NCBI GenBank assembly: GCA_027061805.1
Contig: JAMOWA010000064.1
Location: 124,001-188,000, forward strand
Source: Thermoanaerobaculia bacterium
GTDB taxonomy: Bacteria > Acidobacteriota > Thermoanaerobaculia > Thermoanaerobaculales > Sulfomarinibacteraceae
Reading direction: 5' to 3'
Length of the DNA stretch: 64,000 bases
In this document: positions 1 to 13,581 of the stretch, in pieces
Layout: every line of letters begins with the position of its first letter
Numbering within the stretch: position 1 is the first letter of the stretch
The notes under the pieces: model-generated
Seen by the model: the letters and a program-made list of their open reading frames with translations, nothing else
Database searches by the model: none
Told to the model about the DNA's origin: nothing
Program-made: the position numbers and the translations under genes

Positions 1-59
1 CCACCACGGACACGGCATGGCACGGGGGCCCCAGGGGGTGGAGCGATCTCGAGGCGGGA

Positions 60-8590: not shown

Positions 8591-8650
8591 CACCGGCGCG
8601 ACGACCTCCGGCATGTCAGGTATTGACAGCGAGACATCTTCGTGTAGGAT
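8591..8650 (+). promoter_or_regulatory. leu operon promoter with upstream conserved block
   Basis: A sigma70-type promoter: TTGACA at 8623-8628, 16-base spacer, TAGGAT at 8645-8650. Predicted transcription start is about 8657-8660, at or next to the leader ATG. Immediately upstream, 8591-8622 contains ACGACCTCCG at 8601-8610, followed by a GGTATTGACA context. The same block with the same spacing precedes the tRNA-Gly promoter at 37 kb. Confidence 0.75.
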
Positions 8651-8659
8651 CGTGCGGTC

Positions 8660-8794
8660 ATGGTCGGACGACGCAGTCACCACACCCTTCTTCGGAACCG
8701 CATCGCGGCGGCGCCCGGTGCCGCTGCTTCTCCCGTGGTCCGGAATCTCCTTGGCCTGGCCCTTACGGGCGACATATCGGGGGTTCCGACGTAG
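8660..8794 (+). CDS. leuL: leu operon leader peptide
   Basis: A 44-codon ORF starts at ATG 8660, 10 bases after the -10 box, so the transcript is probably leaderless; no Shine-Dalgarno sequence can fit. Six leucines occur, four of them packed into codons 30-35 (CTC CTT GGC CTG GCC CTT, 8747-8764), with Val-Val at 26-27 and Leu-Leu at 10-11. The stop (TAG 8792-8794) lies 26 bases before a terminator hairpin. Codons 39-42 contain the segment that can pair with the terminator's 5' arm. This is the classical layout of a branched-chain amino acid leader peptide: ribosome stalling at Leu codons would signal leucine shortage. The peptide itself is expected to have no other function. Confidence 0.8.
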
Positions 8795-8829
8795 GCAGAG
8801 CCATGGTTGTTCACGTCGCAAGCCCCCGA
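8777..8829 (+). promoter_or_regulatory. Antiterminator pairing of the leu attenuator
   Basis: TCGGGGG at 8777-8783 is perfectly complementary to CCCCCGA at 8823-8829, the 5' arm of the terminator. The same TCGGGGG recurs as the terminator's 3' arm (8834-8840), so the two pairings are mutually exclusive. A ribosome stalled on the Leu cluster should leave 8777-8783 free to form the antiterminator. A ribosome that reaches the stop codon at 8792 would cover it. Confidence 0.75.
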
Positions 8830-8846
8830 GGAATCGGGGGCTTTTT
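8821..8846 (+). terminator. leu operon attenuator (intrinsic terminator)
   Basis: A perfect 9-bp stem, AGCCCCCGA (8821-8829) with TCGGGGGCT (8834-8842), has a GGAA tetraloop and a run of five T (8842-8846). It lies between the leader peptide stop and leuA, 22 bases before the leuA start. Confidence 0.88.
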
Positions 8847-8868
8847 CATTCCAGGAGGTACCGTACAC

Positions 8869-10503
<1,635 letters not shown>

Positions 10504-10520
10504 ACGACAAAGGAACGAGC

Positions 10521-11954
10521 ATGCCTGCCAGCCCGAGAACCCTGTTCGACTCGATCTGGGACGATCACCTGGTCATTCCCGGATCCTCGCACGACGACAG
10601 CTCCGACGTGCTGTACATCGACCTTCACCTCGTGCACGAGGTCACCTCACCCCAGGCCTTTTCCATCCTGCGGGAGCGGGGCCTCTGCCTCCGGAGACCC
10701 GGCCAGACGATCGCGACAATGGATCACTCGACACCGACAGTTCCGCCGGATGCGGACGGCCGCCATGCCTTCAGCGACACGGAGACGGCGGCCCAGGTGG
10801 CACAGCTCGAGGCCAACTGCACCGAGTTCGGCGTGCCACTGTACCCGCTCGGCCACGAGGATCGTGGCATCGTCCACGTCATGGCGCCCGAGCTCGGTCT
10901 CGTCCAGCCCGGGATGACCATCGTCTGCGGCGACAGCCACACGAGCACCCACGGGGCCTTCGGCGCACTCGCCTTCGGCATCGGATCGAGCCAGGTCGCG
11001 CACGTGTTTGCCAGCCAGTGTCTCCTCGTCCGGAGGCCCCGGACCTTCGAGATCCGCATCGAGGGCACCCTCGCTCCGGGAGTCACGGCCAAGGACGTCA
11101 TACTCGCCGTGATTGCAAGAATCGGCACGGAGGGTGGCGTCGGCCATGTCTTCCACTACACGGGAAGCACCGTGCGGGCGATGTCGATGGAGGAGCGGAT
11201 GACCCTCTGCAACATGTCCATCGAGGGCGGTGCGAGAGCGGGCCTGATCACACCTGATGACACGACCTTCTCCTACCTCGCCGGGCGGGATTTCGCTCCC
11301 CGCGGCCACGCCTTCGATGAGGCCGTCTCCGGCTGGCGCCGACTCGCCAGCCGCGAAGGTGCAGCCTGGGACCGCTCGGTCACCATCGACGCCACGGCGG
11401 TGGAACCGATGGTCACCTTCGGCACGAATCCGGCCACGGGAATTGCGGTCGGAGATCCCGTCCCGGACCCGGGCGGCCTGCCCACCGAGGAAGAACGGGC
11501 GGCGCTCCGGCGAGCCCTCGAGTACATGGCCCTCGAGTCCGGCAGACCGCTGGCCGGCCATCGCGTGGATGTCGTCTTCATCGGCAGCTGTACCAACTCC
11601 CGCCTGAGCGATCTCCGCGCGGCGGCACGAATCCTCGACGGGCGGAAGGTGCACGACAGGGTCCGGATGCTCGTCGTGCCCGGCTCCCATCGGGTCAAGC
11701 GAGCCGCGGAGGACGAGGGGCTTGACCTGGTCTTCAGGAACGCCGGGGCCGAGTGGCGGGAACCGGGGTGTTCCATGTGCCTCGCCATGAACGGCGATCG
11801 TGCACGACCCGGCGAGCTCGTGATCAGCACCTCGAACCGGAACTTCGAGGGCCGGCAGGGACCGGAGGCACGTACGGTGCTCGCCAGCCCCATGACCGCC
11901 GCCGCCTGTGCCATCACCGGCACCATCACCGATGTGCGGGAGCTGCTGCAATGA
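10521..11954 (+). CDS. leuC: 3-isopropylmalate dehydratase large subunit
   Basis: Aconitase-family large subunit. With LeuD it isomerises 2-isopropylmalate to 3-isopropylmalate via a [4Fe-4S] cluster. Seen in the 477-residue product: TMDHSTPT and [15 protein letters not shown] substrate-binding segments, [12 protein letters not shown], the cluster Cys in IGSCTNSR, and the pair in [14 protein letters not shown] 10521 is preceded by AAGGA at a suitable distance; a GTG at 10500 overlapping the leuA stop would add seven residues. The stop overlaps the leuD start by four bases, so the two subunits are translationally coupled. Confidence 0.96.
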
Positions 11955-12520
11955 AGATCACCGATCCCCACCCGACCTTCCTCCCCGTCGACAACATCGA
12001 CACCGACCGGATCATCCCGGCCCGGTTTCTTACAACCACCAGACGTGACGGTCTCGGATGCCACCTCTTCGAGGACTGGCCCGAGGGAAAGGCAGCTCTG
12101 TCGGATGCGTCCATCCTGATCGCCGGCAACAACTTCGGCTGTGGCTCCTCGCGCGAGCACGCGGTCTGGGCCCTCGTCGACCGCGGCTTCCGGGCGATCG
12201 TCTCCACCGGATTTGCCGACATCTTCCATGCCAACGCCATCAGGAATGGCCTGGCACCGGTCGTGATCGCTGGTGAGGACCACGCCCGGCTCGTCTCCCT
12301 GCTCGACGACGGTCCGGATCATGAAACGGTCCTTGACTTCACGTCGCGACGGCTGATCTGCGGACCGCTCGACATCACGTTTTCCGCCCGGGCGGTACCG
12401 ACCGGCCAGGCCATCCCTGGTGACGCCGAGCTCGACCTCCTGCTGGCACGAATCGATGACATCGAACGCTGGGAGGCCCACCACCCCCCCCGTATCGATA
12501 CGAGAAAGGACAGGCGATGA
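11951..12520 (+). CDS. leuD: 3-isopropylmalate dehydratase small subunit
   Basis: Small (swivel-domain) subunit of isopropylmalate isomerase, 189 aa. It shows the family landmarks [33 protein letters not shown] and [21 protein letters not shown] overlaps join it to leuC upstream and leuB downstream, supporting coupled, stoichiometric expression. Length is close to the bacterial norm of about 200 residues. Confidence 0.96.
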
Positions 12521-13581
12521 CTGCTCGAATCCTGTTGCTGCCCGGTGATGGAGTTGGCCCCGAGGTCGTCGATGCCGCACGGCGGGTGCTCGAACGGGCA
12601 TCGGAACTCTGGCGGCTCGGTCTCGAGCTGGAAAGTGGCCTGATCGGCGGCGCGGCCATGGACATGGAGGGTGACCCGCTACCTCCTTCAACGGTCGCCG
12701 CGTGCAAGGCGGCCGATGCGGTCCTGCTCGGTGCAGTTGGCGGTCCGAGATGGTCCGATCCGAGCTCACCTGTCCGTCCGGAGCAGGGCCTGCTCCGGCT
12801 TCGCCGGGACTTCGATCTCTTTGCAAACCTCCGGCCGGTGCGGGTCTTCCCCTCCATGGTGGACCGTGCTCCCCTGCGGGCGGACCTTCTCTCCGACGTT
12901 GACATCCTCTTTGTCCGTGAGCTGACAGGCGGGATCTACTTCGGTGCCCGCCAGGAGGACGACGGAAGTGGCGAGGCACACGACACCATGACCTACCGCA
13001 CATCAGAGGTCGAACGGATCGCCCGCGTCGCCTTCGAGGCCGCACGCCGGCGCCGCCACAGGGTGACCTCCGTGGACAAGGCCAATGTCCTCGCGTCCAT
13101 GCGCCTGTGGCGCCGCACGATCGACCGGGTGGCGGCAGACTACCCCGAGATCGGACTCGAGCACGTCCTGGTGGACGCCTGTGCCATGTACCTCATGCAG
13201 CGTCCGTCCGGCTTCGACGTCGTGCTGGCGCCGAACTGCTTCGGCGATATCCTGTCCGACGAGGCCGCAACCCTCGCCGGCTCCCTCGGAATGCTCCCCT
13301 CCGCATCCATCGGCCACGGCAACTTCGGCGTCTACGAACCGATTCACGGCTCGGCCCCGGACATCGCGGGACGGGGAGTCGCCAATCCGACCGCCGCGAT
13401 CCTGTCGGCCGCCCTCCTGCTCCGCCACAGTCTCGGCCGTGACGACGTTGCCCGTGGCATCGAGGAGGCGGTGAAGGCCAGCTTCGCCAGCGGTCTGAGA
13501 ACGGCCGACGTCGCGGGACCCAACGGACGGATCTGCTCCACGGACGAGTTCACGGGGTCTGTGCTCGATCTCCTGGAGTGA
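12517..13581 (+). CDS. leuB: 3-isopropylmalate dehydrogenase
   Basis: NAD-dependent oxidative decarboxylation of 3-isopropylmalate to 2-oxoisocaproate, the last leucine-specific step before transamination. The 354-residue protein carries LPGDGVGPEV, LLGAVGGPRW, the VRELTGGIYFG motif, the catalytic Lys in VDKANVL, the DACAMYLM and NCFGDILSDEAA metal-binding segments, and HGSAPDIAGRGVANPTAAIL for NAD. It closes the operon; no convincing intrinsic terminator follows. Confidence 0.96.
   Translation: MTARILLLPGDGVGPEVVDAARRVLERASELWRLGLELESGLIGGAAMDMEGDPLPPSTVAACKAADAVLLGAVGGPRWSDPSSPVRPEQGLLRLRRDFDLFANLRPVRVFPSMVDRAPLRADLLSDVDILFVRELTGGIYFGARQEDDGSGEAHDTMTYRTSEVERIARVAFEAARRRRHRVTSVDKANVLASMRLWRRTIDRVAADYPEIGLEHVLVDACAMYLMQRPSGFDVVLAPNCFGDILSDEAATLAGSLGMLPSASIGHGNFGVYEPIHGSAPDIAGRGVANPTAAILSAALLLRHSLGRDDVARGIEEAVKASFASGLRTADVAGPNGRICSTDEFTGSVLDLLE

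Follow-up and report, generated by a model that had tools for sequence, protein, structure and literature searches.

In the enterobacterial leuL system (Rfam RF00512, Leu_leader), a leader ORF with leucine codons, an antiterminator and a terminator precede leuA, and the control codons are rare leucine codons; in the leu leader of Salmonella, the rare codon CUA occupies the control position (PMC1183508). Leaderless leader peptides are already known for Sinorhizobium meliloti trpL, C. glutamicum ilvBNC and Streptomyces leuA. In C. glutamicum ilvBNC, the start codon of a 15-codon leader lies 1 nt from the transcription start, no ribosome-binding site is present, and a three-hairpin model, with terminator and antiterminator, has experimental support (PMC11857589). 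Streptomyces leuL and the actinobacterial LEU element combine a leaderless leader and a run of leucine codons before leuA (PMC8079986); the Streptomyces leader lacks a typical terminator and has been modelled as a pseudoknot with a stem between the leucine codons and the Shine–Dalgarno (SD) sequence (PMC1262725). In the Gram-negative attenuator trpL of S. meliloti, which concerns tryptophan and has a 14-codon leader, the leader ATG marks the start of the transcript (PMC7298713). When attenuators predicted in Acidobacteriota were surveyed, almost none had an assigned function (PMC2965389), and our literature search found no description of an attenuator of the present kind in this phylum.

Here, we analysed the leader of a leuACDB operon located in a window of 64 kb (the whole stretch of DNA that was studied) from genome G000 (3.1-Mb assembly, 96.9% complete, GC content of 70% in the 459 kb read). 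By the features that can be tested on the sequence, this leader belongs among the ribosome-mediated transcription attenuators, and the best reading, to which we give a probability of about 0.85, is that it adjusts leuACDB expression to the availability of leucyl-tRNA. A preliminary description of the locus had proposed this logic. The arrangement it described was confirmed and far exceeds chance expectation. Support for the logic comes from the anatomy, from conservation of the leader in relatives, from the fit between the pairing arms and from codon bias, and codon cluster and operon also match.

The leader shares its general plan with enterobacterial leuL but differs from it in several respects: the G000 leader has no match to RF00512 at the gathering score, its control codons are CUU and CUC, a 1:2 protector hairpin is unsupported, arm 2 of the antiterminator falls within the final ORF codons and the start is probably leaderless. 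This start is shared with C. glutamicum ilvBNC, Streptomyces leuL and S. meliloti trpL, although the sequence of the last is unrelated; unlike the actinobacterial LEU element, the present leader has a strong terminator and no preferential pairing of the leucine run with the SD. Thus, a leaderless attenuator is less unusual for a Gram-negative organism than the preliminary description held, given the precedents in S. meliloti (PMC7298713) and Actinobacteria (PMC8079986, PMC11857589). What is new is a class-wide family without Rfam match, a whole RNA family rather than one locus. One class of Acidobacteriota would thereby gain a coherent branched-chain amino acid (BCAA) regulon and an RNA model fit for Rfam, in a Gram-negative setting that links leaderless initiation to a sensor.

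Promoter, leader ORF and probable leaderless start

The features of the locus are listed in Table 1. As previously described, a promoter is followed closely by an ORF of 44 codons, in the arrangement TTGACA-16 nt-TAGGAT-9 nt-ATG. A scan of the kilobase containing the leader gave one promoter-like and one terminator-like site, versus 0.1 of each in shuffled sequences, and the promoter is the sole sigma-70-like site there. The distance of 9 nt agrees with that of leaderless mRNAs (−10 box ∼6–12 nt before the start codon), and the leader ORF has no SD, in contrast to leuA at the same locus. Translation of the leader is therefore probably leaderless. The ATG had been placed at the transcription start itself; the −10 spacing fits this position, but the start is deduced from that spacing, with which a 5′ UTR of 0–4 nt would be equally compatible.

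Table 1. Features of the leuACDB leader and operon (positions in the window)
Feature	Position	Strand	Remarks
−35 box TTGACA	8623..8628	+	Promoter scan; identical hexamer in nearly all homologous leaders
−10 box TAGGAT	8645..8650	+	Followed by 9 nt (CGTGCGGTC), then leader ATG at 8660
Leader peptide ORF, 44 codons, probably leaderless	8660..8794	+	Stop TAG at 8792–8794; without SD
Control codons CTC CTT GGC CTG GCC CTT	8747..8764	+	Leu cluster near ORF end; CUU enriched across leaders
Arm 2 of antiterminator (TCGGGGGTT)	8777..8785	+	Within last codons of ORF; pairs with 8821–8829, 9 bp
Antiterminator inner stem, 6 bp	8788..8818	+	8788–8793 paired with 8813–8818; enclosed by 9-bp arm 2:arm 3 pairing
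Arm 3, terminator 5′ strand	8820..8829	+	8821–8829 alternatively pairs with arm 2
Arm 4, terminator 3′ strand (8834–8843), and T run (8842–8846)	8834..8846	+	Terminator scan
leuA (2-isopropylmalate synthase)	8869..10503	+	ATG at 8869 behind SD AGGAGGT; NCBIfam LeuA above cut-off
leuC	10500..11954	+	NCBIfam LeuC above cut-off
leuD	11952..12520	+	NCBIfam LeuD score just below cut-off
leuB	12517..13581	+	NCBIfam LeuB above cut-off

In the whole G000 genome, the pattern TTGACA-16..18-TANNNT-7..11-ATG occurs 10 times, versus none in a reversed control, and several of the other occurrences precede full-length genes, such as genes that by appearance encode Rrf2-type regulators. In the 459 kb of G000 used for the codon and leaderless-start statistics, promoters located 5–9 nt before gene starts show a weak excess (5 versus ∼1 per bin). 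Leaderless genes have been found in all three Acidobacteria examined, with an average of 13.3% (PMC3160421).

A very stable hairpin (GCGGCGGCGCCCGGUGCCGCUGC, 8704–8727, −19.3 kcal/mol) occupies the central part of the leader ORF. It beats shuffled sequences in G000, whereas most relatives show no such advantage, and a conserved pause hairpin in the ORF body was rejected as a general feature.

Leaders of the same plan before leuA and related leaders before ilv genes

We searched for LeuA in 149 genomes of the class to which G000 belongs (most likely Thermoanaerobaculia) and in 297 of the phylum Acidobacteriota. In 11 other class members (G002, G014, G040, G107, G109, G078, G073, G074, G075, G110 and G136), as well as in a Longimicrobiales genome (L141), leuA is preceded by a leader built on the same plan, and leucine clusters were recorded in 14 leuA leaders of the alignment set. 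Inspection of the regions upstream of leuA in 38 genomes from other families and classes of the phylum gave a single candidate, G244 from another class, which is less similar and has a weak arm 2. The preliminary description had named the loss of the leader ORF or of the competing arms in close relatives keeping leuACDB as evidence against its reading. However, the nearest leuA-bearing relatives, G002 and G014, retain all of them, and the objection fails because leader ORF, leucine codons, competing arms and a predicted near-zero 5′ UTR recur in other genomes. The leaders of G002 and G014 differ by 12 amino acid changes and 7 synonymous changes, which by themselves are no proof of translation. 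The codon following the last leucine codon of the cluster (8762–8767 in G000, and homologous leaders) almost always begins with A (CTTATG, CTTATT, CTTACG, CTTAGC).

At E < 0.001, a covariance model (R1) built from 12 leaders has matches in 38 of 148 class genomes; model sequences had been taken from 9 of these 38. In other classes of the phylum it finds only weak places, mostly of terminator size. The related leaders that it detects, rich in Leu, Val and Ile, stand before ilvB, ilvD and ilvE. The new matches that were read lie before ilvE-like (families f8, f6, f12 and f17) and ilvD-like (f12 and f5) genes, named from their sequence and not by profile. In family f8, leuA is inside a longer operon and a related leader is found further upstream, before ilvE. 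The leaders of ilv genes carry clusters mixing Leu, Val and Ile codons (e.g. LLLLVLVLVLVTQGAN), whereas those of leuA are dominated by Leu. The type of cluster thus matches the product of the operon, which argues for tRNA sensing. Covariation in the terminator was uninformative because most pairs of the alignment do not vary.

Two genomes (G077 and G078, loci L334 and L335) have two tandem BCAA leader-terminator units before ilvD, ∼450–580 nt apart. In the ilvE leaders of family f8 (L311, L320 and L328), the stretch from the −10 box to the leader ATG contains an inverted repeat, CTACCGCCCGGTAG, that is conserved and may serve as an operator or form a 5′ hairpin.

The same attenuator could operate without a leaderless start, if transcription began further upstream or translation began internally, for instance at GTG 8735. 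We regard this as unlikely for leuACDB. All 11 leuA leaders for which an adjacent promoter could be identified (G000 and L141 included; none was found for G074 and G075) have 8–11 nt between −10 box and ATG, across families and another phylum, and none of these leaders has an SD; two ilvB leaders (G002 and G014) have a distance of 8 nt, and the kilobase of the G000 leader offers no second sigma-70-like site. Longer distances do exist in the family, of ∼45 nt in f8 ilvE leaders, 17 nt in f5 ilvD leaders and ∼33 nt in the G244 leuA leader, and the f8 and f5 leaders indicate that the mechanism does not require a leaderless start.

Pairing arms, control codons and the proposed switch

An intrinsic terminator, strong in all 16 leaders compared, lies between the leader ORF and the first gene, and an antiterminator shares its 5′ strand, as in an attenuator. 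The terminator and T run reported earlier are present, but the stem consists of 10 bp rather than 9 (8820–8829 with 8834–8843, loop GGAA). Similarly, the 7-bp pairing TCGGGGG (8777–8783) with CCCCCGA (8823–8829) exists as proposed, within a larger antiterminator of 9 bp plus an inner stem of 6 bp. By folding, the antiterminator (8777–8829) has −27.8 kcal/mol and the terminator hairpin alone −19.5 kcal/mol. The pairing of arms 2 and 3 beats the shuffle mean in every one of the 16 leaders and is within the best 2% in 9; in the worst case, 59 of 500 shuffles are as good. Native arm partners pair better than cross-species ones (−18.7 versus −16.5 kcal/mol, p 0.0006, one leader per genus), a preference to which relatedness alone may contribute; the flanks of the C run have also changed together. 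A conserved 1:2 protector hairpin, as in classical trp-type attenuators, was rejected, since across the 16 leaders this pairing is no better than in shuffles, although the minimum-energy fold of the G000 leader without a ribosome includes it. Such a hairpin is dispensable in two-structure attenuators, e.g. M. tuberculosis ilvB1 (PMC13236596).

The leucine-rich cluster is as first described: four of the six Leu codons of the G000 leader ORF lie in it, so that codons for the end product of leuACDB are grouped there, and four of the six are CUU. In the last 20 codons of the 16 leaders, 36 of the 93 Leu codons are CUU, compared with 8.4% in 259 G000 genes (p 1e-15), and 11 are CUG, compared with 38% in those genes; the p values are optimistic because the leaders are related and only the G000 background was used. 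A single isoacceptor normally reads both CUU and CUC, and the CUU enrichment could be explained naturally by selective charging (PMC1183508). The family offers a direct test, outside enterobacteria, of which Leu codons report starvation, CUU here and CUA in Salmonella.

The CTCCTT of the leucine run, which occurs in 9 of the 16 leaders, resembles an anti-SD and complements the AGGAGG before leuA, so that the run might instead control translation by sequestering the leuA SD, as proposed for the actinobacterial LEU element. However, pairing between leucine zone and SD is no better than that of synonymous recodings (mean rank 0.73, 16 leaders), which gives no support to sequestration by Leu codons or to a CTCCTT kept for SD pairing, and a strong intrinsic terminator is found in all leaders; we rejected this very improbable explanation. 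A plain intrinsic terminator (or one read by an unknown protein) behind a chance ORF, with G/C pairing as a by-product of 70% GC, is just as improbable. Pairings of CCCCC with GGGGG are indeed easy in G000 and the 1:2 pairing is at chance level, but the succession Leu cluster–G arm–stop–terminator is found again across many families and upstream of other BCAA genes, and CUU enrichment runs against the GC bias. Leucine T-boxes exist elsewhere, yet a T-box or riboswitch in place of a translated leader has a negligible probability and was rejected, as no Rfam family besides a tRNA reaches threshold in the window and the leader gave only chance-level matches at a relaxed threshold.

For the ribosome-mediated attenuator, we infer the 5′ end, translation, stalling and regulatory outcome as follows. 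Transcription would start 0–4 nt before the leader ATG, and ribosomes would load onto the bare 5′ end. With ample Leu-tRNA, the ribosome reaching the stop codon (8792) would cover arm 2, leaving arm 3 free to form the terminator, and transcription would end near 8846. When Leu-tRNA is scarce, the ribosome would stall on the control codons; arm 2, left free, would capture arm 3 immediately after its transcription, with RNA polymerase continuing into leuACDB.

We modelled this switch with a ribosome footprint of 30 nt on a transcript ending before arm 4. In G000, a ribosome on Leu codons is predicted to permit antiterminator formation at 0.8–1.0, and a ribosome at the stop to prevent it altogether. 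The contrast holds in 12 of the 16 leaders (in one of them partly) and fails in G040, G073, G136 and G244. Once arm 4 is transcribed, the terminator state is favoured by 0.6–8 kcal/mol even when the ribosome is stalled, so antitermination must be kinetic; the two states come nearest to balance when the ribosome occupies the final Leu codon (8762).

In the untranslated G000 leader, the antiterminator is predicted to form first (0.99). As the protector hairpin is unsupported, this raises the tentative and rather doubtful idea of a class-wide regulon of attenuators whose default is reversed, in which failed initiation on the bare 5′ end would turn the operon on instead of off. In C. glutamicum ilvBNC, expression falls when the start codon is mutated; for the present structure, the opposite is predicted unless there is a protector. 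If the idea is true, the switch would read both Leu-tRNA charging and the capacity of the cell for leaderless (5′-end) initiation.

Source of leucine and relatives of LeuA

The G000 genome gave no acceptable match to ilvB (TIGR00118), ilvD (TIGR00110) or ilvC (PF01450), which were found in all 14 control genomes. Leucine would then have to be built from 2-ketoisovalerate obtained elsewhere or from valine, a situation in which a leucine-only attenuator on leuACDB makes sense.

The upstream regions of Chloroflexota leuA genes, whose products are up to 76% identical to LeuA of G000, carry no such leader. G000 LeuA is 69–76% identical to Chloroflexota LeuA (L068–L076), which exceeds its identity to most LeuA proteins of its own class except those of G002 and G014. 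This suggests that leuA was transferred laterally.
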